Assembly: GCA_002205965.3 (NCBI GenBank)
Contig: NADL03000039.1
Coordinates: forward strand, 62,001 to 126,000
Source: Kappaphycus alvarezii
Taxonomy: Eukaryota; Rhodophyta; Florideophyceae; Gigartinales; Solieriaceae
DNA: 64,000 bases
Direction of reading: 5' to 3'
Below are positions 5,401 through 59,101 of this stretch, in pieces (positions within the stretch are counted from its first letter, which is position 1; the number at the start of each line of letters is the position of its first letter). The translations under genes and the position numbers were made by a program. A model generated the notes under the pieces. It was given only the letters and a program-made list of their open reading frames with translations. It ran no database searches and was not told the DNA's origin.

Positions 5401-5681
5401 GGGGATGGGAGCTAGGCTGCTTTCCATCGGCAAGTTACCAAGAAATCCTTGGTATTTCCGCTTCTTTCCTGCGTGGGCTGTGTTAGGCGCGTGCTGATAG
5501 GAACGGATTTTTTTGTCGCCGTCATATACAGACCTTTAGTTTATTGTACAACCTCTCCTTGTCCAAATTTGCTTATAGTTCCGGTCCTTCCTCGTCCTCC
5601 CTGATCCTTGCTTATCATTACTGCGGTCCTCGCCAAATTTACTTTCATTTTATCTAGACTTTTTTATACTGTATCTACCCC

Positions 5682-6412: not shown

Positions 6413-6799
6413 ATCTACCCCTCTGAATCGATCCCGAATCAAGTTGTTTTTCCCTTTTTGCTTACTTCCTCCTCCAAATTCGCTTTTTTGAGAAAAAGGG
6501 CGCAAATGAAGTACTACGAAATCCCTTATAGATTTATTTTACCTATTTCTAATCTATAGAACCTGTCCGGGAGCCTTTTTAAACGCCTTTATTCCAAGTT
6601 TTAAACGTCCATTATCATTTTACTTATCACCTCTCTCCCACGAAACACCCAAAACACCCTCAATTGCCCTACATTTCACAAAGCCTACCCAAATGATCAA
6701 TCTATGCCCCCCGAAAGTCATTTCCAAAAATCGCCATCCCCGCTCCCTAAACACTATTCCCCTACTCCCTTTCGGACCTATTGAGCGCGAGGAATACTC

Positions 6800-7248
6800 G
6801 CACCGGCAAACGAAAAGAAGGTTATCGAATTCGGTCGTCGACTTTTTATTGAGGATGAGGCGGAGGAGGTAGGTGAGAGGCGGGAGTGGGACATCGAGGT
6901 GGGAGCTGAGGAGACCTTCGAGGAGTGGGTAGCCCTTGAATTGGTCTAAGAGGTCAATAACGGGAGGATGGGGAGGATGGGGAGGAGTAAGAGGAGGAAG
7001 AGGAGGTCGAAGACGATTTGGATGAGGGAAAAGGGGGCGTGGAAAGTGTTAGACTGGTGGGGCCTGGACTGGAGAGTATGGAACAAGTCGTGCCGACGCT
7101 GGAACCGGATGAAGATATCTTTAGTAGTTTAGATATCTCCCAGGAGGAAATAGAGAGCTATGAGCCATCCGCGGATATTTGTGACTGCTTGGATAGCATG
7201 GATATTTTGGAGGAGCTGTTTGGATCTGATTTAGAGAAGGCGAAATAA
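6800..7248 (+). pseudogene. Diverged copy of the LTR-borne acidic protein frame
   Basis: Fossil copy of the reading frame described at 30286-30855. Recognisable parts are EFGRRLFIEDEAEEV, EETFEEWVALEL, GPGLESMEQVVPTLEPDEDI and FSSLDISQEEIES, ending with CLDSMDILEELFGSDLEKAK at 7248. The final 15 residues (DSMDILEELFGSDLE) are identical to those in the young LTRs although the DNA differs at several third positions. The copy is broken in a few places. Confidence 0.7.
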
Positions 7249-7736
7249 GAGGACCTCATTGATTCTTTGTTTGTTAAGTATCTTTTCTTTAGAGTATATC
7301 ATCCACACAAATTTTTTCTATGCATTTCCTGGTACCTTCTGTAGTTTTGTTCGGACTTCAGGGGTAGCCAAAAGTCTAAATAAGCTGAGTAAACTGCTTC
7401 CTCATGGAGAGGTCAAGCAAGTTGGCAGAAAACTTCAAGCCGAGTCCCAAATAGTTAGTAAGTTGAGAGTCAACTTCACATACAAGAAGCATTTACTTTA
7501 CGCTAGTCATTGATCATAGGTGGTAGACCCAGCCCCTTCCATACTTGCTTGTAGCCCTCTCAATTCTGTTGCATATACATTCCTTTTTGTTCGTTCAACT
7601 ATAACACGGTAGCACTTTTGTCGCTTGCAACACATCCTTCTTGGGGTAGTTGGTTCTGAGTATCTCTTTTCCCGGCGATTTACCCCTATCGGGCAGCGTT
7701 TAGGCTTGTGACTGAGTTAGTTTTCCTCGCTTTAAC

Positions 7737-19571: not shown

Positions 19572-21048
19572 TGATAGGGGTAAATCGGCGGGGGAAGAGA
19601 TCCTCAGAACCAATTACCTTGAGAAGGAGGTGTTGCGAGCGACAAAAGTGCTACCGTGGTATTGTTGAACGAACAAAAGGGAGTGTATATAGAAGAGAGT
19701 TGAGGAAGCTACAAGCAAGTATAAAAGGGGCAGGGTCTACCACCGACGCTCTGCGACTAGCGTAAGAAAAAGTTTTCTTGGGTCTGAAGTTGACTCTCAA
19801 CTTCCTACTACTCGGGACTTGGCTTGAAGTTGTCTGCCAACTTGCTTGACCTCTCCATGAGGAAGCAGTTTACTCAGCTTATATAGACTTTTGGCTACCC
19901 CTAAAGTCCGAACAAAACTACAGAAGATACTAAGAAATGCATAAAAATACTTTGTGTGGACAATATACTCTAAGCAAAAGATACTTAAGAAACTAACAAT
20001 TAATTTGGTCCTCTTATTTCCCATTCTCTAAATCAGATCCAAACAACTCCTCTAAAATATCCATGCTGTCCAAGCAGTCCCCACAAATATCTGCGAATGG
20101 CTCACAACTCTCTATTTCCCCTGGGAGATATCTAGACTACTAAAGATATCTCCATCCGGTTCCATCGTGGGCACAACTTGATCCATACTCTCTATTCCAG
20201 GCCCCACCGGTCCAACACTTTCCATGCCCCCTGTTGCCTCATCTTCCTCCTCCTCCTCCTCCTCCTCCTCCTCCTCATCCTCTTCTTCCTCATCCTCATC
20301 CTCCTCATCCTCCTCATCCTCATCTTCCTGATCCTCGTACACTAGCTCAGGGGCTAACCATTCCTCGAAGGACTCCCCGCTCTCCTCCTCGACCTTCTCA
20401 GCCTCTCCCGGACTTACCTCCCTCGCTTCTTCTTCTATGAAGAGGCGGCGCACGAATCGATGATTTGCTTCTTTGTTTGCCGCCGGATGTAGTCGTCGGC
20501 ATCGGTTGGCCCGTAGGCGGCGGACGAAGGCCATTGATGGAACGGGAAGGGCGGTTTTTGGAAATAGGGACAGAGGGGCGAAGGTTGCTCATTGTGATAG
20601 AAGTTGGGGAACAGGAGGCAATGTGGGGTGCTTTGGGTGTGTGGGGGAGAGGGGTGATGAGTAAAATGATCGGGGGCATTTGGAACTTAGAATAAAGGGG
20701 TTTAAATAGGCTCCCGGGGCAGGTTCTATAGATTAGGAATAGGTAAAATAAATCTGCAAGGGATTTTGCAATAGTGCATTTGCGCCCTTCTTCTCAAAAA
20801 AGGCGAATTTGGAGGAGGAGGTAAGCTAAAAGGGAAAAGGGACTTGATTCGGGGTCGATTCAGAGGGTTAAATACAGTATAAAAATATTCTAGATAAAAT
20901 GGAAGTAAATTTGGAAATGACGGTTGGAGAAGTTAGGGGCGGGATCGTTGTAGGTTGCTGGATTACACGAGGGGAGGACCATTTCCTGTCTTACGTGAAG
21001 GGAGGACCATTTCCTGTATTAAATGAGGGAGGACCATTTTTGTATACA
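19572..21048 (-). mobile_element. Solo LTR of the young gypsy family
   Basis: The LTR runs from TGATAGGGGTAAATCGG (left, its 3' end on the minus strand) to TGTATACA (right). It is flanked by CAATG on both sides (19567-19571 and 21049-21053), a 5-bp target duplication of the size integrase makes. It is 1477 bp long and closely similar to the LTRs of elements A and B, including three 26-27-bp units near the right end. The internal region was presumably lost by LTR-LTR recombination. Confidence 0.92.
20014..20592 (-). pseudogene. LTR-borne acidic protein frame in the solo LTR
   Basis: Copy of the frame described at 30286-30855, with SNLRPSVPISKNRPSRSING at the start, EFVRRLFIEEEAREVSPGEA-like sequence, a long glutamate/aspartate tract and the CLDSMDILEELFGSDLENGK end. 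It is interrupted in a few places in this copy. A TATA-like TTTAAATAGG box (minus-strand CCTATTTAAA) lies upstream near 20701. Confidence 0.75.
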
Positions 21049-23222: not shown

Positions 23223-23339
23223 TGATACTGCATCGCTTGGAAAGGCCAAATCCAGCGCACACACCATTAATCAGTCTAAACCAATTTACTTTCCTACCAC
23301 CACCTCGAAGGAGGACGTTACTCATAACCGATACCGAAA

Positions 23340-24151
23340 ATGGAATTTCTCAAAACTTTCATCACCATCGCCCTTCTGACGGCATCCTGTCTGGCTGCAA
23401 GCATCCCTACAGGACAAAAGATTGACATTATCCCGTGTCGTGAAGATAGCTTTGGGATTCCATGCGTCGAGCGGCAACCGAGGAAGCTGGTCAGGATTGA
23501 GCATGAATCTCTAGCTGTTCCCGTGGTACATCAGGCGGAGGACGTGCACTTTGCTCTGAACAGAAGTTCATCCGGGTTTTCGAGAGTGACTGGCGCGTCG
23601 GTGTGAGGGTGCAGCGTGGCATTGCAGCAGATCTCAGATACAGCATCACTGTTAATGCAATTACGTCAGAGAGGATCTCTTCTTTAACTGAATCTCTTGT
23701 GTCACGTCTCAACGTAACCGAGTTGGGTATTCTCAACAGTTTATTGGCTGACTACAACCATGGTCTCTCTGTCCCCATTTTGCAGCTGCTTGGCATCAAC
23801 CTCGGAGGTACCACAAACCTAGAAAGCCAGACCACGGCCTCCATGTTCATCGACAGATACAATCAGCTATCAGAAACTGTTCAGGAGATCCTTGAGAGCA
23901 CAGAAGAAGCGACAGTGGCTGTTGTTGGTAACTTAAGGGCGTTCGGGCTGTCGATGGTTCCCGTGGAGGGTTTCGTTTTTGTTCGAACTGCAAGAATGTT
24001 TTTCAATGATGGCACCTCTAGCTTGGTTGTACATCTGATCCTAACGAGACGGAAGCAGCAACTCTCTCGGGCCAAATTCTTCCCTCTCAAGACAAAAACC
24101 TATACACCGGCCCTGTCGATGGTATTCCTGCCTCTCTTCTTAGGTAGATAG
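23340..24151 (+). pseudogene. Secreted protein of unknown function, copy 2
   Basis: This is the best-preserved copy. The N-terminus MEFLKTFITIALLTASCLAA is a textbook signal peptide. The mature part starts near SIPTGQKIDIIPCREDSFG and has cysteines at IIPC and GIPC, then VVHQAEDVHFALNRSSSGFS, YSITVNAITSERISSLTESL, LSVPILQLLGINLGGTTNLE, ASMFIDRYNQLSETVQEILE and GLSMVPVEGFVFVRTARMFF. NRS, NVT and similar sites suggest glycosylation. Two changes of reading frame (near residue 88 and again towards the end) mean it is a pseudogene, unless an intron or assembly error explains them. The C-terminal end differs from copy 1. I recognise no domain. Copies at 2317-3189 and 29240-29855. Confidence 0.65.
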
Positions 24152-24515: not shown

Positions 24516-27500
24516 CGTGTTCATATAGTCAGATATGGAATTGGACTCTTTCTAATTCTCTTTGCAAAATTTATCACCTTTCATACTCTAAATGGCGTCC
24601 TTTGATTCGGAATTACAGCTAAAGAAAACATATTAGGGTCTCATAATTACCATAGGATTCCAGTCCTCATCTTTTAAATCCAAAATCATAATCACCCCAT
24701 GCCCTGTTCAGTATTCTTCGAGCGCACTTTTTTCCCATCTTCGAAAGTTTTTTTTGGCTCTAAATTTTCGCTTTCATAGCTAGAAGGGAAATATTCAATG
24801 TCTGTTTCTCTTAAAACTTCCGGGTGTGTGCTATTGTCGGAGTCCAGGGGCATCTTTGCTGTTCTGCAATCAATATGAACTGAAACGCTTTGTTTGCCCA
24901 AGTCAATGCATTTTATTAGTCTTTACATGGTATTGCAACCAATGATTGCACCGAAAGGTAGATCAAGCATGAAAAGAAAGTCTTCATCAACTTAAGAGTC
25001 TCCAAAGAATTCTGAAACCTTGTCAACAGTGCCTATTCATTTTGATACAGGTCCATCGGCAATAGTTACTCTTCGTGTGGTTGGCTTTGTTTCGAAAACT
25101 AGATCTGTCACCAAATTTTCTGAAAAAAAAATTGGAACAGCTCCCGAATAGAAATAAGCTTGGGTCTACATTCTCAATACTTTGACTTCTATCAGCTTAA
25201 GACGTCTTGGTGCTATCGAGAACGATTGAAGAAACAATTTCTTACCATTAGCGGACTTATGAGATCTTATAATTCTTTAGAGTTCTTTTCTCGCATCCTC
25301 TCCGTGACCAAACTTTATCCCAATTGGGGCTGATGCAACCAATTTGTACTTCTTCACATACTCTAGTAAGTCCTTTGGATTACTATTTAATTTCTGTTTC
25401 TTATTCATTTACTTGGTCGCATTTATTTCCACTTCTGGAACAACTTAATCAGACCTTTTCGTCCGAAGAGGTTCAGGTGCTGGAATACGCTCAAGCATTT
25501 CAACTAAGGTAGGTTTTTTATAAAATGTTTCTTTCCCCATCCATTTTTTTAAATTGATTTGACTGATTTTTTTCGTGATAGATACGTTACAAGCATCTAT
25601 CCCCCTTTTGTTCTTCTTGCTTTGTGATATTTTTATCTCTGGTTCTGTTTGGTTTTCATGTCCGATAAATATGCTCATTTGTTGTCTCTAGGCCATCAGT
25701 TCCTTTCGTGGTGCCTACAACGACCGCACTTTGCGAAAGTATTATTCCTACGTGGATTATCAGTACATCTATTTGCAAAGTTTCCAGGCTTGTGGAAGAA
25801 GTAACAGACTTATTCAGCCTTAGGAGCCCATCCTGGTTCTTCCTAATATTAAGAGTAAGGATATCAAACTGCGAGGTTATCATGTCAAGGCGATTATCAA
25901 ATCGTTTTTCCAAACCCTCTTCCAAGTTTTAACATCGCTGCTAACAGATTTCAGTGTCACTGCACTAGTAGCCCGCCTTTGATAATACTTCTCAAGATGT
26001 ATTAAGACATCAAACCAAGGTCCCCTTCGATAATTCACTCTGCACCCGCAATGTCTCCGAGTTTTTTTACAAACTTTACTGTGGTATCCTTCAGTCCATT
26101 TAAATTGTGAGGACCCTTGATAAGGTGAGAATAAGAGAGCCGCTTATCCCACATCGCAGTCTTACCCGGGCGTTGAACACTATCTTTTTATACAGATCAC
26201 CGAAGTACACTAACAAGCTCGACAAATATTCAAACTTGAGCCGGGTTTCTATAGCAGTACGAATTATCTCGTCTGGTTCTACCTGCTTAGAATATTTTTC
26301 ACAAGATACTCACATACCTCAGAGAAGCTACGTCCATTCCAATTAAGCGACCACCCTCCGATGAACTTAGGCTTGTATTTGTACTTTGCATCCCCATAAA
26401 GATATGCAAAGATAATTGTGCCTTCTTATCAGCGCTCCTATCACACATCAAAACGTTAAAATATGTAATAATAAACTCCTCAACCTCTTCACTCTTTCCG
26501 GCTGTGAACATCATACGGGCAGCATTGAGATCCATTGTTACAGAAAATGAATCCACCCTAAGTGATACCTAGTACTCCATAGCTCCAATACCTCGGGGGA
26601 GACCCCCTCCACAAGAGTAGCAAATGATAAGTGTAAATCCTCGGAAGAAGAGATACGCAGCACCAAATACCCAGAAGGGAGGTGTTGAAAGCAACAAAAG
26701 TACTAATGTGGTATAGCTGAGTGATAAAAAAGAGTTGGGTAAGGACAAAAGTTGAGAGGGCTGCAACCAAGTATAGAAAGGCAGAGTCTACCACTGATAT
26801 ACTTTGACCAGAGTAAGAGCAATGGTTCTTGGGTCTGAAGCTAGTTTTCAACTTCTTATTACTCGGGACTTGGCTTGAAGTTGTCTGCCAAATTTCTTGA
26901 CCCATCCGTGAGGAAGCAGTTTTCAGTTTTCAGCTTATATAGAAATTCGGCTATCCCTAAAGTCCGAACAAAACTACAAAAGATAGCAGAAAATACATAA
27001 AAATAATTCGTGTTGATTATGTATTCTAAACAAAGATTCTTCGGAAGCTAACAATCGATCTGATCCTCTTAGTTCCTATCTTTGAGATCAGATCGAAACA
27101 ACTCTTCTAATGTACACATGCTACCCGAGCAGTCCCCGTAAATATCCCCAACGGTTCATACTTCTCTTTTTCTCCTGTGAGATATCTAAACCACTGAAGA
27201 TGCCCCATCCGGTTCCATTGTCGTGACCACTTGGTCCATTCTGTCCAGCCCCGTCCCCATCCCAACATTTTCCAAGTATACCTCCCCATTTTTCTTCTCG
27301 TCTTCCTCCTCATCATCCTCTTTGTCTTCCTCTTCATACAAATTCTAGTCGACAAGTTCCTGGGCTGCATACTCCTCAAACGTCTCCTCAGCTCCCTCTT
27401 CGACTTGCTCTCCTTCCACTTACCGACCTCCCCCCCTCATCCTCGACGAACGAACTCGATCACTTTCTTCTTTTTTTTCGGTGAAGATAATCATCGCGGT

Positions 27501-28041
27501 TAGAAGGGCCGAAATGGAGTAAAGAAATGGCGTCTAAAGGACGAGGGTGGCGATTTTTGGAAATTACAATGCAGGAGTATAGATTATTCATTTGGGTGGG
27601 TTGTAGAGATTGGCAGACAATTGAGGATGTTTTAAATGGATAGCGGGGAGAAGTGGTAAGTAGAACAATCAGAGAAGTTTGAATCTTAGAAAAGGGGATT
27701 AAACAAGCTCCCGAGAGTGCATTCTGTAGTTTTGGAATAGGTAAAATAATTTCACAAATGTATTTTTTTAAAGTATTTTTCGCCCATTTTCTCAAAAAAT
27801 GAATTGACAGGAGGCAGGCGAAAAGGGAAAACGAACTTGATTCGGGATCACTTTAGAGGGGTAGATACAGTATAAAAATATCCAGATAAAATGGAAGTGC
27901 GTTTGGAGAGGACGCGGAAAGGATAAAAAAGGGTCAGAAAGGAGAGATATTCTCCCCAGGAAGGTGCTTAGAGTAAGAAAGATCGGAAAAGGACCAGAAC
28001 TACAAGCAATTTTGGACAAATGGGGGTACTACAGTAATTAA
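24516..28041 (-). mobile_element. Decayed gypsy element C (5' LTR, gag-PR)
   Basis: On the minus strand: 5' LTR about 26625-28041, primer-binding region about 26603-26622, gag from about 26536 (MDLNAARMMFTAGKSEEVEE), a zinc-knuckle region near 25700, a protease-like region near 25100, and the beginning of the pol frame near 24900-24690 (RTAKMPLDSDNSTHPEVL). Every part aligns with element A but is clearly more diverged and has many breaks. The element is cut at 24516, so RT onward and the 3' LTR are missing. The distal LTR end resembles variant 2 (compare 5500 and 29856). Confidence 0.85.
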
Positions 28042-29021: not shown

Positions 29022-29239
29022 AGGGTACCACAAACTTTACAGAGTTGAGCTCTGTTAATAAAGTAGTCTCCGAAAGCGGAAAAAATCAGTCTTCCGTCAT
29101 CATCATCCTAAATGGGGAAATCACTCATTTCGTTTCCTACCTGAAGATGCATTTTAACGAAATTCGTTGCTGTTAACTGTTTGGTGACATTCTGTTTGTC
29201 TGCGAGGATTCCTTCAGGACGTTATTTTGATCTTGTCCC

Positions 29240-29855
29240 ATGTTAAAAAAGGGCTCTGGAATTCCGTATATCGAGAGAAAGTCGGAACATTTGGCTAGGA
29301 CTGAGCACGACTTCTTCGCAGTTCTCGCAGTACATCAAGAGGAGGACGCTAATTTTTCCCTAAACGGAAGTACATCAGGGTTCTCCAGGGCGACTAACGG
29401 GTGTGTGCGGGTACAACGTGGTTTTCCCTCACAGCTATGGCTGAACATCACTGTTAATGCGATTACGTTAAAGCAGATTTTTTCTTTAACGGAATCGCTT
29501 GTTAGCAGTCTCAACGAAACCGAGATGGACATTCTCAGCAGGCTGTATGCAAACTAAACCAACAGACTATCTGTTCCCGTACTGCAGCTGTTCGGCATCA
29601 ACCTTAAAGCTATTGCAAATCTATTAAGTCAGAGAGGTGCTGCAATGTTCATCGAAAGGTATAATGAGTTGTCGAAAACTGTTGAGGATATCCTTAAGAG
29701 CACAGAGGAGGAGCCAATTGCATTTCTTAGACAATAGAGGGTGTCAACTCTACAGGAGGCTTTTGAGTCCATTGGGACTGCCCGAATTTTCCGAAATGAT
29801 GAAAGTTGTATGTTGATTGTAACGTCTGATCCAGAAGAGACGGATGCTGCTAGCG
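29240..29855 (+). pseudogene. Secreted protein of unknown function, copy 3 (decayed)
   Basis: Aligns with copies 1 and 2: GIPYIERKSEHLARTEHD, AVHQEEDANFSLNGSTSGFS, LNITVNAITLKQIFSLTESL, LSVPVLQLFGINLKAIANLL, AAMFIERYNELSKTVEDILK and TSDPEETDAAS. The signal-peptide part upstream of 29240 is worn. In-frame stops occur, and the gene is cut off where LTR sequence begins at about 29855. The copy is dead but shows that the family has expanded in this region. Confidence 0.65.
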
Positions 29856-31297
29856 CCGATTTTTTTGCCGCCGTCATCCCAGGCCTATAGTTTACTGTAC
29901 TACCTCTCCTTGTCCAAATTTTCTTATAGTTCCGGTCCTTCCTGGTCCTCCCTGAACCTGGCTTATCATTACCGCGGTTCTCTCCAAATTTACTTCCATT
30001 TTATCTAGATATTTTATGCTGCATCTACCCCTCTGAATCGATCCCGAATCAAGTTCTTTTTCCCTTTTTGCTTACATCCCCCTCCAAATTCGCTTTTTAG
30101 AGAAAAAAAGGCTCAAATGCACTACTACAAAAAAACCTTCCAGATTTATTTTACCTATTCCTAATCTACAGAACCTGCCCCGGGAGCTTGTTTAAACCCC
30201 TTTATTTCGAGATGTAAACGTTCCCGATCATTTTGCTCAGCAGTCCTCTTTCCCTACACACCCCGCTCACCCTTTTTCCAGAAATATGACATCAAATCGT
30301 CCCTCTGTCCCTATCTACAAAAACCGCCCTTCCCGTCCCATCAATGGCCTTCGTCTCGCCCCCTACGGGCCAACCGATGCCGGCGACTACATCCAGCGGC
30401 AAGCAAAGAAGCAAATCATCAAGTTCGTTCGCCGCTTCTTCATAGAAGAAGAAGCGAGGGAGGTAAGTCAGGGAGAGGCTGAGAAGGTCGAGGAGGAGAG
30501 CAGGGAGTCCTTCGAGGAATGGTTAGCCCCTGAGCTAGTGTACGAGGCTCAGGAAGAGGAGGAGGATGAGGATGAGGAAGATGAGGAGGAGGAGGAGGAC
30601 AAGGATGAGGACGAGGACGAGGTGGATGAGGGAACAGGGGGAATGGAAAGTGGTGGATTGGTGGGGCCTGGACTGGAGAGCATGGAACAGGTGGTGCCGA
30701 CGATGGAACCGGATGGAGATATCTTTAGTAGTCTAGATATCTCCCAGGGGGAAATAGAGAGTTGTGAGCCATTCGCAGATATTTGTGGGGACTGCTTGGA
30801 CAGCATGGATATTTTAGAGGAGTTGTTTGGATCTGATTTAGAGAATGGGAAATAAGAGGACCAAATTAATTGTTAGTTTCTTAAGTATCTTTTGCTTAGA
30901 GTATATTGTCCACACAAAGTATTTTTATGCATTTCTTAGTTCTTCTGTAGTTTTGTTCGGACTTTAGGGGTAGCCAAAAGTCTATATAAGCTGAGTAAAC
31001 TGCTTCCTCATGGAGAGGTCAAGCAAGTTGGCAGACAACTTCAAGCCAAGTCCCGAGTAGTAGGAAGTTGAGAGTCAACTTCAGACCCAAGAAAACTCTT
31101 TCTTACGCTAGTCGCAGAGCGTCGGTGGTAGACCCTGCCCCTTCCATACTTGCTTGTAGTCCATTCAATCTTCTTCCCTCTCCACTCCTTTTTGTTCGTT
31201 CAAACTATACCACGGTAGCACTTTTGTCGCTCGCAACACCTCCTTCTTGGGGTAATTTGTTCTGAGGATCTCTTCCTATGCTGATTTATTCCTAACA
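29855..31297 (+). mobile_element. Solo-like LTR, variant 2
   Basis: The left part matches 5505-5670, and the rest matches the LTRs of A and B through both TATA boxes and the acidic reading frame. The end near 31297 (CTGATTTATTCCTAACA) corresponds to CCGATTTACCCCTATCA in the young LTRs. No internal region follows. The left boundary is uncertain by about 10 bp and no target duplication was found. It carries the only copy of the LTR reading frame that is open from start to end. Confidence 0.8.
30286..30855 (+). CDS. LTR-borne acidic protein, open copy (189 residues)
   Basis: The frame runs from ATG to stop within the LTR. Residues 1-25 are basic and proline-rich (RPSVPIYKNRPSRPINGLRL), 26-60 look helical and basic to mixed (DDYI-like QRQAKKQIIKFVRRFFIEEE), and 60-90 are acidic with EEWLAPELVYEAQ. 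Residues about 90-115 are an almost pure glutamate/aspartate tract, then a linker with GPGLESMEQVVPTMEPDGDI. The C-terminus SMDILEELFGSDLENGK mixes acidic and bulky hydrophobic residues like an activation domain. Versions occur in every long LTR of the window. I know no homologue. Role (regulator of the element's own transcription?) is inference only. Confidence 0.6.
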   Translation: MTSNRPSVPIYKNRPSRPINGLRLAPYGPTDAGDYIQRQAKKQIIKFVRRFFIEEEAREVSQGEAEKVEEESRESFEEWLAPELVYEAQEEEEDEDEEDEEEEEDKDEDEDEVDEGTGGMESGGLVGPGLESMEQVVPTMEPDGDIFSSLDISQGEIESCEPFADICGDCLDSMDILEELFGSDLENGK

Positions 31298-38810: not shown

Positions 38811-40356
38811 TGGGGTAAATCGGCGGGGGAAGAGATCCTCAGAACCAATTACCCTGAGAAGGAGGTGTTGCGAGCGACAAAAGTGCTACCGTGGTATTGT
38901 TGAACGAACAAAAGGGAGTGTATATAGAAGAGAGTTGAGGAAGCTACAAGCAAGTATAAAAGGGGCAGGGTCTACCACCGACGCTCTGCGACTAGCGTAA
39001 GAAAAAGTTTTCTTGGGTCTGAAGTTGACTCTCAACTTCCTACTACTCGGGACTTGGCTTGAAGTTGTCTGCCAACTTGCTTGACCTCTCCATGAGGAAG
39101 CAGTTTACTCAGCTTATATAGACTTTTGGCTACCCCTAAAGTCCGAACAAAACTACAGAAGATACCAAGAAATGCATAAAAATACTTTGTGTGGACAATA
39201 TACTCTAAGCAAAAGATACTTAAGAAACTAACAATTAATTTGGTCCTCTTATTTCCCATTCTCTAAATCAGATCCAAACAACTCCTCTAAAATATCCATG
39301 CTGTCCAAGCAGTCCCCACAAATATCTGCGAATGGCTCACTCTCTATTTCCCCCTGGGAGATATCTAGACTACTAAAGATATCTCCATCCGGTTCCATCG
39401 TGGGCACAACTTGATCCATACTCTCTATTCCAGGCCCCACCAGTCCAACACTTTCCATGCCCCCTGTTCCTCATCCTCCTCCTCTCCTCCTCTTCCTCTC
39501 CTCCTCCTCATCTCCTTCCTCTCCTCCTCCTCTCTCCTCCTCATCCTCATCTCTCCTCCTCCTCCTCTCTCCTCCTCCTCATCCTCATCCTCTCTCCTCC
39601 TCCTCCCTCATCCTCCTCCTCCTCATCTTCCTGAGCCTCGTACACTAGCTCAGGGGCTAACCATTCCTCGAAGGACTCCCCGCTCTCCTCCTCGACCTTC
39701 TCAGCCTCTCCCGGACTTACCTCCCTCGCTTCTTCTTCTATGAAGAGGCGGCGCACGAACTCGATGATTTGCTTCTTTGTTTGCCGCCGGATGTAGTCGT
39801 CGGCATCGGTTGGCCCGTAGGCGGCGAGACGAAGGCCATTGATGGAACGGGAAGGGCGGTTTTTGGAAATAGGGACAGAGGGGCGAAGGTTGCTCATTGT
39901 GATAGACGTTGGGGAACAGGAGGCAATGTAGGGTGTTTTGGGTGTGTGGGGGGAGAGGGGTGATGAGTAAAATGATCGGGGGCATTTGGAACTTAGAATA
40001 AAGGGGTTTAAATAGGCTCCCGGGGCAGGTTCTATAGATTAGGAATAGGTAAAATAAATCTGCAAGGGATTTTGCAATAGTGCATTTGCGCCCTTCTTCT
40101 CAAAAAAAGGCGAATTTGGAGGAGGAGGTAAGCTAAAAGGGAAAAGGGACTTGATTCGGGGTCGATTCAGAGGGTTAAATACAGTATAAAAATATCTAGA
40201 TAAAATGGAAGTAAATTTGGAAATGACGGTTGGAGAAGTTAGGGGCGGGATCGTTGTAGGTTGCTGGATTACACGAGGGGAGGACCATTTCCTGTATTAC
40301 GTGAAGGGAGGACCATTTCCTGTATTAAATGAGGGAGGACCATTTTTTGTATTACA
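38811..40356 (-). repeat. 3' LTR of element A
   Basis: On the minus strand it begins TGTAATACAAAAAATGG next to the polypurine tract and ends ...CCGATTTACCCC. It includes three 26-27-bp units at the upstream end, two TATA boxes and a copy of the acidic reading frame (39249-39897, interrupted). The outermost bases differ slightly from the TATCA end of the 5' LTR. Confidence 0.9.
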
Positions 40357-40389: not shown

Positions 40390-41460
40390 TCACTGCTCTT
40401 CTTCTGCTTCCGTTAGTGTTCGCTGTCTTATTGATAAGATGTATGGTCTCTCAAACGGGTACGGATGCAACTGATTACCAATATGATGCTCTAAAAAGTA
40501 GGTTCGCATTACTGGTACCTCACTTTGTAGCATAGCCTCATATATTGGTTTGATCACATCGAGGTGGGGTTGAATACATTCTTCTTCCGTGACTCTTCCG
40601 AATCTTCCAAGAGTGAAAAAATATATGTGATATGCAAACTCTTCTGGAAGATGCCGGAGGAATGGATGTCGATAAGAAAAGAAGACGCGCATCATCAAGA
40701 ACGAATCTTCGTAAGATAAGTGCGGTCCATGTAGCGCCCTAAAACATAAACAGATGCTTATCATGAAATAAGAAATGACCTGCGCATCGTTCGCATCCTC
40801 GGAGATATTGCGCAGCCAAAAAGATAATCTTCTTCTTCCGACTGTATGCTGTGCATGGTTGTGAAGCAGAGCTAGAGATGAAGTTGTGGTGGACGGTCCC
40901 GATGAATGGCCGCGACCAGCTCCTGACGTACTGGGACCTGCACGAGGTCCTCTCGGGGGACGACCGGAACCTCTTCTGGGCGGGTTGTTGTCTCCTGAAG
41001 GTCCTCCTCTGGTCATCATCACTGCTTCAGGAGGATCCTCGCCGCCTCCAACGTTCCCAATTTGTGGCGGAGAAACGTAAGGTTCCCATAGAGGATACGG
41101 GACCAGCCTGTATTCCATATCCGGGGGTAAGGCGTAACCTCTCAGTCGCACGTCTTGGTTGTTCTTGAGAAATACGTAAATTGGACGGATAATATTCAGA
41201 TACGTTTGCGACAAGTCTCCAGCAGCTACCATTCCATATCTTCCTATAGAGTAATGATATATTACCTCCACAAACTCTGGACCTGCTTCCGTGAACCTTC
41301 CGTTTTGGAATGAAAATAGAACTCTTATTAATAGTCGGAAATCTTCTTCAGGTAGCAATGGTCCGTTCAACGTACGAAAACATAGGCATATATTAATGTA
41401 GAAATGGATGATTACGTGGAGTTCGTAGTAGTCCCGCGTAACCGAGATGATCCATTCCCA
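40390..41460 (-). CDS. Extra C-terminal Pol region with two tandem unknown modules
   Basis: The open frame that carries the integrase C-terminal part continues about 355 residues past it. Module 1 (about 41460-41071) and module 2 (about 40821-40438) align over their length: ICLCFRTLNGPLLPEED with ICLCFRALHGPHLSYED; EVIYHYSIGRYGMV with YHIYFFTLGRFGRV; YLNIIRPIYVFLKNN with HLDVIKPIYEAMLQS; LVPYPLWEPYV with LHPYPFERPYI. Between them lies a Gly/Pro/Arg/Ser-rich linker of about 80 residues. The frame stops at 40390, twenty bases before the polypurine tract. No chromodomain, envelope or known domain is recognised. Element B runs off the window before this part. Confidence 0.7.
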   Translation of the reverse strand, partial: WEWIISVTRDYYELHVIIHFYINICLCFRTLNGPLLPEEDFRLLIRVLFSFQNGRFTEAGPEFVEVIYHYSIGRYGMVAAGDLSQTYLNIIRPIYVFLKNNQDVRLRGYALPPDMEYRLVPYPLWEPYVSPPQIGNVGGGEDPPEAVMMTRGGPSGDNNPPRRGSGRPPRGPRAGPSTSGAGRGHSSGPSTTTSSLALLHNHAQHTVGRRRLSFWLRNISEDANDAQVISYFMISICLCFRALHGPHLSYEDSFLMMRVFFSYRHPFLRHLPEEFAYHIYFFTLGRFGRVTEEECIQPHLDVIKPIYEAMLQSEVPVMRTYFLEHHIGNQLHPYPFERPYILSIRQRTLTEAEEEQ

Positions 41461-41499
41461 GGCCCTTTTTCCTCCCATAGGAATCATTCTATAGTTAAA

Positions 41500-44400
41500 G
41501 ATGAGTATGCCCCGTGGTTGCGCATAGTCCTGTGTGAGAAGGAATTCTTCAGGCCTCTGATGGTAAGGGACCAGACGACGTGCATGGATGGCCCTCCTTG
41601 ATCTCTTCCCTGAGCTTGAACAGAGCTGATAGTGCGGGTGTCTTTCCTCCGTGACGATGCAAGGGTTCGAGTACTTGGTTTGGAAGGCCGGCCACTTCAC
41701 AGCCTGCTGCATTGCTTTTCCATGTACTACAAGTACTTTAGAGCCAACTGAAAAGGTTCTGACTGCAGGTTCTGCATCCTTATTTCTTGTCTGTGTTAGC
41801 GCGCGGTGTGATCTCCAGCCTTCGGTGGCCAGTAGTTCAACTTCCCTACTCTCTTCATCGATAATATTTGTTTCCATGTCTCTCTGTAACATTCTAGGAG
41901 CCCTTCCGTACATTAGCTCGAATGGTGAGCGTCCATTTCTTCCTCTTCTTCGACGGTAGCCGTATAACACTTTTGGTAAGGCATCTTCCCACTGGATTTC
42001 ATTCTCCAACATAGTTTTCGATATTGCTCGTTTGATGGTTCCAACCATCCTCTCCGCTTTCCCGTTGGACATAGGAGCGTATGCGAGAACGGTCTTCAGC
42101 TGAATCCCTTTCTCTTCCAAAAACGAAGCAGTGAAGTTGCAGTAAAACAAAGGGCGTTATCCGAGATGATCCTTTTTGGAAGACCAAACGGTTCAATTAT
42201 TTCTTTTTCGATGAATCTCAGTACCACCTCAGCATTTGCCTCCTCGATGCAACTGCTATTGGCCATCCAGTAAGATGTTCCACCCCTATAAGGAGATATT
42301 TGTTTCCGGAAGAAGTTTCCTTGAACGGGCCCGCGAAGTCAATTGAGAAGGTTTCAAAGAGACCGGAAACTGGAAAACTTAGAGTTGTCTTATACTTCCG
42401 TATTGGAGTGAATTTTTGGCAGTTGTCGCAGCTTTTCACGAAGTTATAGACGTCCTTATGGATACCGGGCCACCAGAATCTCTCAGTTACGAATTTTTTG
42501 GTTGTTTCGAGATCCCAATGCCCTAGCTCATCATGGAAAGTCCTCAAGATCTTCATTCTTTCTTTCAAAGGGGCCACTAGTCGGGGACCGGCTTTAGTGT
42601 GCCGGAAAAGTTTCCCATTCCACAATGTAAAAGCCTTTTGATTCCTGCGTACCCAATTTCGGTGTTCAAGATCAACCTTTCTCATTTCTAGTCCATCGAG
42701 GAATTTGATCAGTCCGTGAATATTAGCTTCGTACTCGTTATCGTTCGGCAACTGCAACTCGGCGACTCCGACGATGTCCTCCGAAGCTTTTTCATTTGGA
42801 ATCAGTGCGTCCCTCAAGCGGGATAGGTAATCGGCAGGCTGATTATTGCGTCCGGGTCTATACACAATTTCAAACCGATATTCTGCGAAAATGTCGAGCC
42901 ATCGGGCCAAGCGGTGATGTACATCCTTCTTTTGGAATGCTGTTTTAAGTGCCTGGTGATCAGTTATCAAGACAAATTTCTCGAGTGATAAAAGGTATAC
43001 GCGAAACTTTTTCAGCGCGAAGACGACAGCTAGCGCTTCTTTCTCGCAGACTGAGTATCTCTTTTCCGCGTCATTCAGAGTTCGGCTTGCGAATTGAACA
43101 GGGTGTAGTCTTCCGTTTTCATCTTTTTGGGACAAAACGGCACCCAAAGACCGTTCTGAGGCATCTGTCTCCACAACGAATGGTCTCTTGAAATCTGGGT
43201 ACATGAGAACTGGGGGGACACATAGCTTATCTTTAAGCTCCTGAAATGCAGTTTCCATTTCCTTGTTCCAGTAAAATTTTCCGTTCTTCGTAGTGCTGGC
43301 ATGTAACGGTGCTGCAGTCTTGGCGAAATCTTTGATAAATCTTCTGTAATATGAGGCCAGTCCTAAGAAGCTTCGGACCTCCGTCTTTGAAGCGGGCCTT
43401 GGTGCCAACTTTATTTTTTTCGTTTTCTCTGGATCCACTCTAATTCCCTCTTGGTCGACGATATGACCGAGTAATTGGATAGAAGTTTTCGCAAAGAAGC
43501 ATTTGCTCAACTTAATTTTCAAGCTATACTCCGATATCCTCTCCACAACTGTCTTGACGTGCGAGATGTGCTGATCCAATGTTTCTGAGAATATGACGAC
43601 ATCATCGATATAGACTCTTGCGAATGGAAGTCCTTTCAAAACCTCGTTCATCATTCTTTGGAATGTAGCTGGTGCATTCATGAGACCAAAAGGCATCACT
43701 TCGAACCTGAACGTACCGGCTTTGCTGGTAAAGGTTGTTTTTTCCTTACATTTTTCATCCAATGGAATCTGCCAATAGCCAGTGTAAAGGTCAATTGAGG
43801 TGAAATATCTCCCGTCCTTCAGGTCCTCGAGGATCTCCTCCATGTTCGGAATCGGAAATCGATCGGGTATCATTCTCTGGTTCAGTTGTCGGTAATCGAC
43901 GCAAAAACGCAGCTTTCCATCCTTCTTTGGTGCGACCACAACTGGAAACGACCATGGGGATGAAACTGGTCGAATAATATCATTTTTCAGCATACTTGTA
44001 ACATTTTCTGAGATAAATTGGTCATATTTTGGCGGTTGACGTCTAGGCTTGTGGTAAATCGGTTGAGTGTCGGTAAGTTCGAACGAGTGAGTAACCGGTA
44101 CACTTGCTTGTCTTAAATCTGAAACGCTCCATGCAATTACTTCGGAAGATGTTAACATGTCGGATATTTTCAGTGAGGCGGGGGCGGGAAGGTGCTGCTT
44201 TTTTCCTTGGATTTCTGCCATTTGGCGCCCTTTTTCTTCTTGATCCTCAACCTCAATATTTTGAAGGACCTCTTCCGTCGTGCTCACATCTTCATATATG
44301 GAATTCGACGTATTCTTATTTTCTTTGCAAAGGTAATCTTCTTTCATGCTCCGAATTCTGTCCTTTGATTCGATATCATCGCAAAAAGAAACACATTCGG

Positions 44401-44692
44401 GTTTCAAACTTATCCTAGAATCCCAGTCGTCATCTGTTTCAAACCCGGAATCATAATCGTCCCATGCCATGTTCATTAACCCCCGAGGGTACCCTTTTCC
44501 ACTTCCGAAAGTGTTAGTTGGTTCCGAATCTTCGCTGTCATAGCTAGAAGTGAAATCTTCACTGTCCGTTTCTTTTAAATCTTCAGGATGCGTGCTTTTG
44601 TCGAAATCCAGGGGCATCTTCACGGTTCTGCCGTCAATATTAACTGAAACCATTTGGTTGCCCAAGTCAATGCATGTCCCTAGTCTTTCCAT
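41500..44692 (-). CDS. Pol of element A: reverse transcriptase, RNase H, integrase
   Basis: The frame opens with an acidic spacer (EDFTSSYDSEDSEPTNTF). Reverse transcriptase follows around 44100-43350 with RFCVDYRQLNQRMIPDRFPI, FEVMPFGLMNAPATFQRMMN and the catalytic YIDDVVIF near 43610. RNase H lies at 43200-42800 (FVVETDASERSLGAVLSQKD, ITDHQAL). The integrase zinc-binding part is near 42530 (HDELGHWDLETTKKFV, SCDNCQK) and the core shows FSIDFAGPF, then GKAERMVGTIKRA with the third catalytic residue. The integrase C-terminal part has FSVGSKVLVVHGKAM. Family: Ty3/gypsy (Metaviridae). Pol starts in the -1 frame relative to gag at an overlap, and element B has the same arrangement. It is nearly whole, with about one break. 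Confidence 0.9.
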
Positions 44693-46353
44693 GGTGGGCA
44701 GCCAATGATTGCATCGAAAGGGAGATCCGGCATGACAAGAAAGTCTACATCAACTTTAGAGTCCCCAAAGAACACGGAAACCTTGTCAACAGTGCCCATG
44801 CATTTTGAGACGGTTCCATCCGCTACAGTTATTTTTCGAGTCGTTGGAGTAATTTCGAGACCTAGATCTGTCACCAAAGTTTCTGAAATGAGGTTTGGAA
44901 CAGCACCCGAATCGAAGAGAGCTTGGGTTTTCATACCCAATACTTTGACTGGTACCAGCTTAAGACGTCTTGGTGCTGTCGAGGCCGATTGAAGAAACAG
45001 TTTCTTACCCTTAGCGGACTTATTAGACCTGATAATTTTTTTGAGTTCTTTTCTCGCATCCTCTGCGTCGCCCCTCAAAAGTTGACCAAACGTTATCCCA
45101 GTTGGGGCCGATGCAAGCTCAGCCACCAAATTGTACCTCTTCACATACTCTAGTACGTCCTTAGAGATACTCTTAACTTTCTTACTCTTTTTCGTCTTCT
45201 TGGCCGGAGTGACTCCCACTCCTGGAACAACTTGATCAGACCTCTTGGTTCGAGGAGGTACAGGTGCTGGGATATGCTCCAGCATTCCATACTCTAGCCT
45301 AGGTTTCTTCGATAAAATGTTCCCTTCCCCATCCCTTTTTGTCACATTGACTTGACTAATCTCTTCAGCGATGGATACGTTACCGGCATCCGTCAACCTT
45401 TGATCCCTTCTATTTTGTAAGATTTTCACCTCTGGTCCTGACTCACTCCTTGCTTCCGATAAATTTGCTCTTCTGTTGTCTTTAGACCAGCAGTTACTTT
45501 CATGATGCCCATATCGACCGCACTTTGCACAACGAGTGTTTCTATGTGGATTATCAGGACACCTGTTTGCAAAGTGTCCAGGCTTGTGACAGTAAGAACA
45601 GACTTCTGCGGCCTTAGGGGCCCCAGACTGGTTCTTCTTAATGGTAAGAGTAAGGCTTTCCAACTGCGAGGTTATCATGTCAAGTCGATTATCGAATCGG
45701 GTTTCCAACCTTTCTTCCAAGTTTTTGACATCGCTCCTGACAGATTCTAATGCCGCTGCACTAGTAGCCGGCCTTTGATAATTCTTTTCAGGATGTACGA
45801 TAGACATCGATGTGCGGGTTTCCCTCGGTACCTCACTCAGTGACTGAAACGTCTCCGAATTTTTGACAAATTCTACTATGGTACCCTTCAGTTCATCAAA
45901 AGTGTGAGGGCCCTTGATGAGGAGGAAATCGGAGAGCCGCTTATCCCCCATAGCCGCCTTACGCAGCATTCCGTACTTGGCTTGGGCGTTGAACCCAGCC
46001 TTTTCATAAAGATCACACAAGTACACCAATGAGCTTAACAAATCGTCGAAGTTGAGCCGGGCCTCTATGGCGGTACGAATCATCTCATCTGGTTCTACCT
46101 CCTTAGCATACTCTTTCACAAGCCACTCACATACCTCACCGAAGTTACGCCCATTCCCGTTAAGAGACCACCCGTCGATAAACTTGGACTTATATTTGTG
46201 CTTTGCGTCACCATGAAGATAGGCGAAGATACTTGCGGCCTTCTCTTCATCGCCCTTCTCTCGCATCACAACGTTGACATATGTGTAAAGAAACTCCTCA
46301 ACGTCTTCAGTCTTGCCCCCTGTGAACGTTATACGAGCAGCATTGAGATCCAT
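44680..46353 (-). CDS. Gag-protease of element A (557 residues)
   Basis: The ATG lies about 85 bp after the primer-binding site. The capsid-like region (residues 1-200; FKxx-type DEVEEFLYTYVNVV, YLHGDAKHKYKSKFIDGWSL) is followed by a coiled-coil-like stretch (about 205-240). Two CCHC zinc knuckles at about 252-290 read CSYCHKPGHFANRC and CAKCGRYGHHESNC. A lysine-rich spacer comes next, then an aspartic protease with DSG near residue 480 (ALFDSGAVPNLISETLV) and the flap-side FLVMPDLPFDAIIGCP. The order and size fit Ty3/gypsy. It ends where the pol frame begins. Confidence 0.9.
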   Translation of the reverse strand: MDLNAARITFTGGKTEDVEEFLYTYVNVVMREKGDEEKAASIFAYLHGDAKHKYKSKFIDGWSLNGNGRNFGEVCEWLVKEYAKEVEPDEMIRTAIEARLNFDDLLSSLVYLCDLYEKAGFNAQAKYGMLRKAAMGDKRLSDFLLIKGPHTFDELKGTIVEFVKNSETFQSLSEVPRETRTSMSIVHPEKNYQRPATSAAALESVRSDVKNLEERLETRFDNRLDMITSQLESLTLTIKKNQSGAPKAAEVCSYCHKPGHFANRCPDNPHRNTRCAKCGRYGHHESNCWSKDNRRANLSEARSESGPEVKILQNRRDQRLTDAGNVSIAEEISQVNVTKRDGEGNILSKKPRLEYGMLEHIPAPVPPRTKRSDQVVPGVGVTPAKKTKKSKKVKSISKDVLEYVKRYNLVAELASAPTGITFGQLLRGDAEDARKELKKIIRSNKSAKGKKLFLQSASTAPRRLKLVPVKVLGMKTQALFDSGAVPNLISETLVTDLGLEITPTTRKITVADGTVSKCMGTVDKVSVFFGDSKVDVDFLVMPDLPFDAIIGCPPWKD

Positions 46354-46756: not shown

Positions 46757-47660
46757 ACTTTTGGCTACCCCTAAAGTCCGAACAAAACTACAGAAGATAC
46801 CAAGAAATGCATAAAAATACTTTGTGTGGACAATATACTCTAAGCAAAAGATACTTAAGAAACTAACAATTAATTTGGTCCTCTTATTTCCCATTCTCTA
46901 AATCAGATCCAAACAACTCCTCTAAAATATCCATGCTGTCCAAGCAGTCCCCACAAATATCTGCGAATGGCTCACAACTCTCTATTTCCCCCTGGGAGAT
47001 ATCTAGACTACTAAAGATATCTCCATCCGGTTCCATCGTGGGCACAACTTGATCCATACTCTCTATTCCAGGCCCCACCGTCCAACACTTTCCATGCCCC
47101 CTGTTCCTCATCCTCCTCCTCTCCTCTCCTCCTCATCCTCTTCTTCTCCTCCTCATCCTCCTCATCTCTCCTCTCCTCCTCTTCCTCCTCCTCATCCTCC
47201 TCATCCTCTCCTCTCATCTCTCCTCCTCCTCATCCTCTCATCCTCTTCTCCTCCTCCTCATCCTCCTCATCCTCTCCTCCTCATTTCCTGAGCCTCGTAC
47301 ACTAGCTCAGGGGCTAACCATTCCTCGAAGGACTCCCCGCTCTCCTCCTCGACCTTCTCAGCCTCTCCCGGACTTACCTCCCTCGCTTCTTCTTCTATGA
47401 AGAGGCGGCGCACGAACTCGATGATTTGCTTCTTTGTTTGCCGCCGGATGTAGTCGTCGGCATCGGTTGGCCCGTAGGCGGCGAGACGAAGGCCATTGAT
47501 GGAACGGGAAGGGCGGTTTTTGGAAATAGGGACAGAGGGGCGAAGGTTGCTCATTGTGATAGACGTTGGGGAACGGAGGCAATGTAGGGTGTTTTGGGTG
47601 TGTGGGGGAGAGGGGTGATGAGTAAAATGATCGGGGCATTTGGAACTTAGAATAAAGGGG

Positions 47661-47669: not shown

Positions 47670-48039
47670 GCTCCCGGGGCAGGTTCTATAGATTAGGAAT
47701 AGGTAAAATAAATCTGCAAGGGATTTTGCAATAGTGCATTTGCGCCCTTCTTCTCAAAAAAAGGCGAATTTGGAGGAGGAGGTAAGCTAAAAGGGAAAAG
47801 GGACTTGATTCGGGGTCGATTCAGAGGGTTAAATACAGTATAAAAATATCTAGATAAAATGGAAGTAAATTTGGAAATGACGGTTGGAGAAGTTAGGGGC
47901 GGGATCGTTGTAGGTTGCTGGATTACACGAGGGGAGGACCATTTCCTGTATTACGTGAAGGGAGGACCATTTCCTGTATAACGTGAAGGGAGGACCATTT
48001 CCTGTATTAAATGAGGGGAGGACCATTTTTTGTATTACA

Positions 48040-49012: not shown

Positions 49013-49285
49013 TTGAAGAAACCTTCGCTATCATCTACCCCATCGGCTCCCCCTCCTTTGGCCCTTAACGTAACCAGCCTCCGCCCTTCTTTCACCATCG
49101 CTAAGTCATTCCGAGGCCCTCAACCTCTCAACGCAATGGCTCTAATGGGTAATAAACCAAACGAATATGATGGTTTCTCAAGAAGATTGAACCGAGAACG
49201 CGATCGGAATTGGGCCCGTCTGCACTGCTTCGAGGAGGCAGAGGGTTCAGAGGAGGAGGTAGAGGAAGAAGCGGTAGAAGAATAG
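49013..49285 (+). CDS. Divergent homologue of the LTR-borne acidic protein (90 residues)
   Basis: The translated part SLRPSFTIAKSFRGPQPLNA then DGFSRRLNRERDR and EEAEGSEEEVEEEAVEE keeps the order of the LTR frame (SNLRPSVPISKNRPSRSING, DDYIRRQTKKQ, then the acidic tract). A TATA-like CCTATTTAAAG lies about 30 bp before the ATG, matching the GCCTATTTAAA context in the LTRs. The DNA around it does not otherwise look like the known LTRs. It could be an old LTR of a sister family or a host-held copy. It ends soon after the acidic tract, without the conserved C-terminus. Homology is by eye. Confidence 0.4.
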   Translation: MKKPSLSSTPSAPPPLALNVTSLRPSFTIAKSFRGPQPLNAMALMGNKPNEYDGFSRRLNRERDRNWARLHCFEEAEGSEEEVEEEAVEE

Positions 49286-56667: not shown

Positions 56668-56786
56668 TTTCTTCGTCACAAGGTAGTAGGCGGAGTAGAG
56701 ATATCGATGGTCAGGTTGCTTGTTTGTTTGGAGTTGGAGGGGAAAGAAAAGAGGGATTCTAGTAGAACAATGTTGTCGTGAAGCCA

Positions 56787-56793
56787 ATATATA
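56787..56793 (-). promoter_or_regulatory. TATA box of the cysteine-rich gene
   Basis: GTATATATTGG on the minus strand lies about 120 bp upstream of the ATG at 56667, consistent with a transcription start about 90 bp before the start codon. Confidence 0.45.
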
Positions 56794-56826
56794 CTGTTCT
56801 CGAGAAGATGGCATCTCGTTTGTCAT

Positions 56827-57578: not shown

Positions 57579-59101
57579 CGTAATACAAAAAATGGTCCTC
57601 CCCTCATTTAATACAGGAAATGGTCCTTCCTTCACGTAATACAGGAAATGGTCCTCCCCTCGTGTAATCCAGCAACCTACAACGATCCCGCCCCTAACTT
57701 CTCCCACAGTCATTTCCAAATTTACTTCGATTTTATCTAGATATTTTATACTGTATTTAACCCTCTGAATCGACCCCGAATCAAGTCCCCTTTCCCTTTT
57801 AGCTTACTCCTCCTCCAAATTCGCCTTTTTGAGAAGAAGGCGCAAATGCACTACTGCAAAATCCCTTGCAGATTTATTTTACCTATTCCTAATCTATAGA
57901 ACCTGCCCCGGGAGCCTATATAAACCCCTTTATTCTAAGTTCCAAATGCCCCCGATCATTTTACTCATCACCCCTCTCCCCTCACACACCCCAAACACCC
58001 TACATTGCCTCCCGTTCCTCAACGTCTATCAAAATGAACAACCTTCGCCCTTCTGTCCCTATTTCCAAAAACCGCCCTTCCTGTCCCATCAATGGCCTTC
58101 GTCTTCGCCGCCTACGGGCCAACCGATGCCGACGACTACATCCGGCGGCAAACAAAGAAGCAAATCATCGAGTTCGTGCGCCGCCTCTTCATAGAAGAAG
58201 AAGCGAGGGAGGTAAGTCCGGGAGAGGCTGAGAAGGTCGAGGAGGAGAGCGGGGAGTCCTTCGAGGAATGGTTAGCCCCTGAGCTAGTGTACGAGGCTCA
58301 GGAGGAGGAGAGGAGGATGAGGAGAGATGAGGAGGAGGAGGATGAGGATGAGGAGATGAGGAGGAGGAGGATGAGGAGATAGGAGAGGAAGAGATGAGGA
58401 GAGATGAGGAGGAGGAGGAGGAGAGAGGAGGAGGATGAGGAACAGGGGGCATGGAAAGTGTTGGACGGTGGGGCCTGGAATAGAGAGTATGGATCAAGTT
58501 GTGCCCACGATGGAACCGGATGGAGATATCTTTAGTAGTCTAGATATCTCCCAGGGGGAAATAGAGAGTTGTGAGCCATTCGCAGATATTTGTGGGGACT
58601 GCTTGGACAGCATGGATATTTTAGAGGAGTTGTTTGGATCTGATTTAGAGAATGGGAAATAAGAGGACCAAATTAATTGTTAGTTTCTTAAGTATCTTTT
58701 GCTTAGAGTATATTGTCCACACAAAGTATTTTTATGCATTTCTTGTATCTTCTGTAGTTTTGTTCGGACTTTAGGGGTAGCCAAAAGTCTATATAAGCTG
58801 AGTAAACTGCTTCCTCATGGAGAGGTCAAGCAAGTTGGCAGACAACTTCAAGCCAAGTCCCGAGTAGTAGGAAGTTGAGAGTCAACTTCAGACCCAAGAA
58901 AACTTTTTCTTACGCTAGTCGCAGAGCGTCGGTGGTAGACCCTGCCCCTTTTATACTTGCTTGTAGCTTCTCAACTCTCTTCTATATACACTCCCTTTTG
59001 TTCGTTCAACAATACCACGGCAGCACTTTTGTCGCTCGCAACACCTCCTTCTCAGGGTAATTGGTTCTGAGGATCTCTCCCCCGCCGATTTACCCCTATC
59101 A
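57579..59101 (+). repeat. 5' LTR of element B
   Basis: Starts at TAATACAAAAAATGGTCC and ends CCGATTTACCCCTATCA. Contains three 26-27-bp units (57580-57665), TATA box 1 at 57916-57924, the acidic reading frame 58034-58662 (interrupted), TATA box 2 at 58788-58798 and the hairpin at 58871-58889. Confidence 0.9.
58034..58662 (+). pseudogene. LTR-borne acidic protein frame in element B
   Basis: Starts NNLRPSVPISKNRPSCPING and ends CLDSMDILEELFGSDLENGK. The middle is a long GAGGA/GATGAGG-type tract whose length differs between LTR copies. The frame is interrupted in this copy. Confidence 0.7.

Follow-up and report, generated by a model that had tools for sequence, protein, structure and literature searches.

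A conserved protein-coding gene within the LTRs of a Ty3/gypsy lineage, with a possible role in self-regulation

Introduction

Long terminal repeats (LTRs) are usually viewed as regulatory DNA, and solo LTRs as scars. In the window analysed here (the whole stretch of 64,000 nucleotides from Kappaphycus alvarezii), one LTR that is solo in the assembly contains a long open reading frame. Does this frame encode a protein, is the protein kept by selection, and what might it do? We addressed these questions by comparing the copies of the frame in the window and in the rest of the same genome (336,021,096 bases in 884 contigs).

An open frame in a solo LTR

The frame runs on the forward strand from an ATG to a TAA (30286..30855, +; 189 codons) with no internal stop, just as the initial annotation had read it. 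The LTR that holds it (29855..31297, +; delimited by self-comparison and alignment of the window LTRs, left edge approximate) is kin to both LTRs of element A, to the LTR of element B and to three LTRs of greater age in the window. When the sequence of this LTR was shuffled 1000 times with dinucleotides preserved, no ATG frame attained 189 codons; however, the longest shuffled frame reached 181 codons and, since this margin is small, the selection tests described below carry more weight.

In every copy the frame lies on the sense strand of the element; in element A, gag and pol share their strand with the frames of both LTRs. The frame ends upstream of a TATA box (box 2; 30983..30989, +) that is strongly conserved in the window LTRs and is followed by conserved sequence. 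From this conservation we infer that box 2 is the promoter of the genomic RNA. If box 2 does start the genomic RNA, the frame, being upstream of it, probably sits in U3 of a Ty3/gypsy LTR, and we refer to it below as the U3 gene.

Copies in the window

All seven LTRs that the initial annotation had listed as carriers bear the frame or its remains. In element A the frame is lost in the Glu/Asp tract in both the 3′ LTR (39249..39897, −) and the 5′ LTR (46884..47554, −), and in the LTR of element B (58034..58662, +) it is shifted in the N-terminus and the tract. The young A and B frames are thus broken mainly in the tract and by small indels, which may be assembly errors or real slippage. A further copy of the same family (family I; 20014..20592, −, in LTR 19572-~21049) is shifted by single-base indels. 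Two old copies resemble a different family (family III): S6 (6690..7248, +, in LTR 5500-7691), the C-terminal part of which is open (6991-7245), and S27 (27050..27560, −, in LTR 26625-28041), which is decayed. The last 15 codons of S6 had been said to differ from those of young copies only silently, and the alignment bears this out, with three differences, all of them silent. The LTR of S6 is interrupted by 5682-6411, a sequence that resembles 4433-4943 on the opposite strand (74%).

We found an eighth, far more diverged copy at 49067..49279 (+), within a diverged LTR remnant. It resembles the N-terminal part, consisting of the N-terminal domain and the start of the acidic tract, and belongs with a second family (family II). 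Its protein matches the N-terminal domain, with scores of 43-59 against four copies or pieces that none of 3000 shuffles reached in any of the four comparisons. The DNA of 49067-49279 gave no alignment above shuffles with the other window LTRs.

Three diverged LTR families carry the frame

Searches of the whole genome revealed that three diverged LTR families carry the U3 frame. First-look candidates numbered 2758 (family I), 3785 (II) and 2520 (III), but these are unscored and may overlap, and so do not amount to a gene count. A DNA search for family I gave 40 scored places, the window copy and 39 others at 91-93% identity. In 16 of the 28 LTRs read (the window copy and 27 more), both ends of the protein are in one open frame; among these 16, the last motif is a variant in two and the tract is scrambled in two. 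A DNA search for family III likewise gave 40 scored places including a family-III copy of the window, the others at 73-77%, and the eight copies that we fetched are decayed.

Searching with 49067-49279 returned 150 scored matches including itself, the others at 55-66%, and these form family II, with the parts of the protein in the same order. Of 20 copies picked for long frames, five have no interruption between the N-terminus and the end of the C-terminal motif. When 50 family-II loci were compared with one 1392-bp family-II LTR, the match began at its first bases in 27, near position 194 in 21 and deeper inside in 2, while 46 extended to position 1381 or beyond. These loci are therefore parts of LTRs, and their distal ends are of at least two kinds (IIa and IIb). 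Taking one copy per family (and at most 44 residues for family III), the N-terminal domains are 50% (I-II), 55% (I-III) and 41% (II-III) identical, and the C-terminal parts 67%, 80% and 74%, respectively.

Selection on the protein

The cleanest test compares family III with the family-I frame, because both sets of copies were found by DNA searches. Over 73-85 codons of the N-terminal domain, pN/pS was 0.28-0.47 in ten of ten family-III copies. Shuffling the alignment columns gave means of 0.82-0.87, and for none of the ten copies was a value as low seen in 300 shuffles, although the copies have common ancestry and hence are not independent.

Within the window, the old copies S6 and S27 compared with the young ones gave dN/dS of 0.12-0.28 in the N-terminal domain, against 0.87-1.42 for the other two frames of the same pairs. 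In the C-terminal part, dN/dS was 0.12-0.33 in all window pairs with synonymous differences, and 0.58-2.84 in the other frames, leaving out pairs of young copies that differ at one site or none. In the N-terminal domain a different picture emerges when the copy at 30286 is set against the A/B type, with dN/dS of 1.27-1.41 on 11-12 differences and 0.24 in frame 1. The excess of third-position differences is modest: p was 0.014-0.031 in four of six N-terminal pairs and 0.045 in one of six C-terminal pairs, and one of 12 pairs of non-coding controls also reached 0.031.

Median dN/dS of the true frame within family I was 0.99 for the N-terminal and 0.33 for the C-terminal part (other frames 0.35 and 0.80, and 1.52 and 0.54, respectively); the window copy is counted twice in these values (as L001 and wS30). 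With pooled differences below 4%, they hold little information on the N-terminus. The corresponding medians were 0.25 and 0.49 within family II, and 0.38 and 0.58 within family III, with 0.66-1.46 in the other two frames of both. The family-II values are biased downwards because its loci came from a protein search and the 20 copies were chosen for long frames. The selection on the protein that the initial annotation had suspected is thus seen between families, where dN/dS or pN/pS is well below 1 and other frames are mostly near 1, but not in the N-terminus within family I.

Could the frame be open merely by composition, and the similarity reflect constraint on the LTR as DNA? The tract is stop-free by composition. 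Its length keeps the frame in 22 of 31 copies (34 minus three without anchors), whereas the lengths of upstream non-coding sequence spread 12/10/8 over the three phases; however, slippage of a three-base repeat preserves the frame by itself, and the length of a short non-coding segment downstream is likewise constant in 26 of the 31. The composition, the slippage, this constant length and the family-I N-terminus would suit an LTR without a gene. Against it stand the codon-phase selection between families, measured relative to both the other frames and the column shuffles, and protein similarity that persists beyond the reach of DNA alignment. We regard this explanation as largely refuted and scarcely credible. 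Judged by substitution patterns, purifying selection keeps a three-part protein between the three diverged families, and the LTRs of this Ty3/gypsy lineage hold a genuine gene, probably in U3.

We also considered a spliced gene, as a donor-like site, GAGGTAAGT, lies inside the family-I frame. It was dropped as a general feature because the family-II frame examined lacks GAGGTAAGT there and the copies remain in frame across the tract.

Anatomy of the protein and what it may do

The N-terminal domain (30286..30459, +; about 58 codons) is basic: residues 1-50 of a family-I copy contain 11 basic and 4 acidic residues (charge +7). It is followed by a Glu/Asp tract of variable length (30553..30630, +), in which 25 of 28 residues of the family-I copy are acidic, and by an acidic-hydrophobic C-terminal part of 72 residues (30637..30852, +) in which 18 residues are acidic, 1 is basic and 22 are large and hydrophobic (charge −17), and which ends with the motif DSMDILEELFGSDLE. 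AlphaFold placed helices at residues 32-58 (in the N-terminal domain), 65-79, 82-92 and 170-181, with low confidence (mean pLDDT 51.1). By composition, the three parts described by the initial annotation are all present; the resemblance of the C-terminus to transcription activation domains that it proposed is a presumed one.

A scan of the U3 protein P0001 and of a family-II copy against Pfam gave nothing above cut-off, and no known DNA-binding or activation domain; below cut-off, the weak matches of both were to charged nuclear proteins. The sole PDB match of a family-II copy has an E-value of 0.032. A protein search with the whole of P0001 scored 7980 candidates, none with E ≤ 1, and a search with the tract masked yielded 85 candidates, none with E ≤ 10. 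Searches of viral contigs and of prokaryote genomes found no relatives of the U3 protein.

The anatomy fits a self-encoded transcription regulator that would act on its own element, a function that we infer from sequence and to which we give an even chance. The main rival is a counter-silencing or chromatin factor: the protein would associate with chromatin, or with host repressors that carry SUMO, and relieve silencing of the LTR without being a strict activator. Family II additionally holds GVIVISDSSDEDEE, the core of which (as defined by a pattern) is kept in 35 of 39 gap-free copies, and which presumably resembles a SUMO-interacting motif; histone-binding proteins can have long acidic tracts, and the sub-threshold Pfam matches are to charged nuclear proteins of this sort. 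Since the SUMO-like motif is unseen in families I and III, and the conserved C-terminal motif would be unneeded for mere loss of silencing, we consider this rival unlikely.

The basic N-terminal domain could alternatively bind element RNA, in an RNA-binding or export factor similar to Rev or Rex, with the Leu/Ile-rich end (DSMDILEELF) as the export signal. By eye, though, the spacing is not that of a canonical export signal, the C-terminal part is acidic throughout, and gag-pol of element A and of a related element (L079) show no sign of a need for splice control in the features examined, all of which makes such a factor improbable.

Promoter-like boxes and a shared site

The initial annotation had pointed to a TATA box upstream of the frame, and in families I and II a TATA-like box indeed precedes the ATG by 85-114 bp. 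In the open copy, box 1 (TTTAAA; 30191..30196, +) is 95 bp before the ATG. Among the young LTRs it reads TATTTAAA in those of A and in 19572-~21049, and TATATAAA in that of B. The spacing between box and ATG is 114 bp in A's family-I LTR, compared with about 85 bp in an LTR of family II.

A promoter-like box of its own within the LTR would also suit a particle-associated or copy-control protein. The Ty1-encoded restriction factor is the product of an internal promoter, and high copy number would favour control. The U3 protein has no apparent similarity to gag, however, and the element encodes gag in a frame of its own; moreover, selection on the element would hardly conserve a protein that restricts it in three families. 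We regard copy control as very improbable.

In the distal U3 of the open copy there are two copies of GGTCCT (29934..29950, +), the second within an exact TGGTCCTC (29943-29950); another exact TGGTCCTC, in reverse orientation, directly follows the stop codon (30856..30863, −), upstream of box 2. Four types of distal U3 (A/B, S30, IIa and IIb; 190 bp, one copy each) have two 8-mers in common on either strand, TGGTCCTC and TCCAAATT, and none of 1000 shuffles reached as many. Common descent accounts for part of the sharing of TCCAAATT, since the last part of the 190 bp can be aligned between A/B and S30. The window contains 19 exact copies of TGGTCCTC, 18 of them in family-I LTRs (13 in distal U3 and 5 reversed after the stop, upstream of box 2), although these 18 are not independent events, the LTRs being copies of each other. 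None was found in the family-III LTRs of the window or in the relic at 49067. The young family-I LTRs have 28-bp tandem repeats at their outer end, in 3.0-4.4 copies (47918-48039, 40264-40356, 57580-57672 and 20958-21039) and with GGTCCT in each unit; outside the LTRs, the density of GGTCCT on both strands is 0.42 per kb. The user of the candidate site TGGTCCTC may be the element's protein or a host factor.

One gag-pol with different LTRs

Element A has an LTR pair, as seen by self-comparison, between which open reading frames and Pfam identify gag and pol (40390..46353, −). The H2C2 domain scored above cut-off and the integrase core weakly (rve_3, below cut-off); no env was detected among its frames. 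The frame after integrase (40390-42150, −), also present in L079, has a terminal extension of two units of ~110 residues (41/108 identical) joined by a Pro/Arg/Gly-rich linker and without a Pfam match. Elements A and B (59191-63441, +) are 98.5% identical, with their gag/pol frames broken at different places, which hints at single-base assembly errors. In a search for pol relatives, the best 120 of 6147 were at most 66% identical in sources without an organism name and at most 47% in named organisms, and pol of the element was not found in viral contigs. A fungal host, assumed in the initial annotation, finds no support: Zn_clus gave no matches, a weak indication as none of 14 controls matched either. 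The homeodomain gave 14 matches, which would be a low number for an animal.

Over 6 kb of gag-pol, L079 and element A are 92% identical. The 3′ half of its LTR matches A at 79%, and the 5′ half, with the promoter and the N-terminal domain, matches in the tract only. More broadly, A-like internal sequence of at least 100 bp was present at 26 of 86 other loci, 19 with family-I and 7 with family-II LTRs. The identity to A was 98.6-100% at 17 of the family-I loci, 97.9% at one and 88.4% at one where the match does not touch the LTR; at the seven family-II loci it was 84-94% (87-94% for the five that touch the LTR edge). The LTR and U3 protein thus differ far more than gag-pol, and have therefore either been exchanged or changed much faster. 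The copy at 30286, whose N-terminus is that of family I while its distal end resembles the S6 and S27 LTRs, speaks for exchange. Strict coupling of the N-terminal domain to the distal U3 was considered and rejected, because this copy mixes family I with a family-III-like end and because IIa and IIb have one N-terminus with different distal ends.

In L079 (reverse-complement coordinates), the left LTR (1082-1669) is cut short and leads directly into gag, and the right LTR (7736-9154) is 99.66% identical to it over 588 bp. Next to the right LTR come about 27 bp of the sequence that in A follows the 5′ LTR.

A model for the U3 protein

On the regulator reading, promoter 1 would yield a short mRNA for the U3 protein from any LTR, solo LTRs included, and promoter 2 (TATA box 2) would yield the genomic RNA. 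The N-terminal domain would target the protein to the LTR, either through contact with DNA or via a host factor; the candidate binding site is TGGTCCTC, which family I has in the distal U3 as well as directly behind the stop codon, ahead of box 2. The acidic C-terminus would recruit the transcription machinery, so that the protein, nuclear and acting in trans, would raise the expression of both its own gene and gag-pol. Several observations count against this reading. Pfam offers no DNA-binding or activation domain, no functionally characterised homologue was found and the protein model is of low confidence. Exact TGGTCCTC is absent from the old family-III window LTRs and the 49067 relic, and may serve a host factor, while IIa and IIb have different distal U3 sequences with a common N-terminal domain. 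Finally, the N-terminus is not constrained within family I, and the young window copies in A and B are broken.

Tentatively, the scheme can be extended. Each LTR, even a solo one, may be a cassette of promoter 1, an activator gene, promoter 2 and, in family I, TGGTCCTC upstream of both; distal-U3 modules and activator genes would swap between families on a common gag-pol, and the very many solo LTRs would form a trans-acting network. We would sooner doubt than affirm this extended scheme as a whole.

The nearest known layouts are those of mouse mammary tumour virus (MMTV) sag and foamy-virus Tas, by analogy and with no kinship detected. The superantigen gene sag lies mostly in U3 of a betaretrovirus LTR and has several reported promoters in the LTR (PMC4667437). 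It resembles the U3 gene in being a gene within an otherwise non-coding LTR, here probably also in U3; Sag is a superantigen, however, whereas the protein here is highly charged and belongs to a Ty3/gypsy element without a detected env. Neither P0001 nor a family-II copy matched a retroviral superantigen in Pfam. In bovine foamy-virus Tas, an N-terminal domain binds DNA and a C-terminal one activates transcription, the targets being the LTR and the internal promoter that drives tas (PMC4929722). The working scheme proposed for the U3 protein would be the same as that of Tas (Bel-1), but the internal promoter of tas lies between env and the 3′ LTR (PMC4929722), and the frame here is wholly inside each LTR. 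No kinship to Tas/Bel-1 was apparent, either in Pfam above cut-off (P0001 and a family-II copy) or in the protein searches with P0001.

Additional genes occur on other LTR retrotransposons. The ORF3s of bdelloid rotifer elements have a modular make-up and typically form spliced transcription units of their own (PMC5408684), and a regulatory role has been proposed for antisense aORFs of plant elements (PMC7264820); in the portions available, neither source describes them as internal to the LTR. We found no protein-coding Ty3/gypsy LTR in the accessible parts of the open-licence literature, including PMC11117352, PMC13195028, PMC12786077 and PMC4234436. A conserved protein gene, probably in U3, in at least three diverged Ty3/gypsy families means that solo LTRs may carry working genes, and that genes can be missed where LTRs are masked as non-coding. 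If the regulator reading is true, this would be a self-regulating element outside retroviruses; the reading predicts a short mRNA, a binding site and an activation domain.

Other sequences in the window

Further Ty3/gypsy-like pol remains are at 7740-9290 (−) and 15454-16647 (+), with Integrase_H2C2 in 15496-16098 and, by eye, frames like reverse transcriptase and RNase H. A repeated gene-like sequence occurs at 2320-3199 (−), 23328-24148 (+) and 29188-29709 (+); the second copy, of which 23603-24148 had no Pfam match, has a signal-peptide-like start, and the third ends just before LTR 29855-31297. A 146-aa cysteine-containing frame at 56395-56832 (−), without a Pfam match, has a signal-peptide-like stretch and is possibly a host gene.
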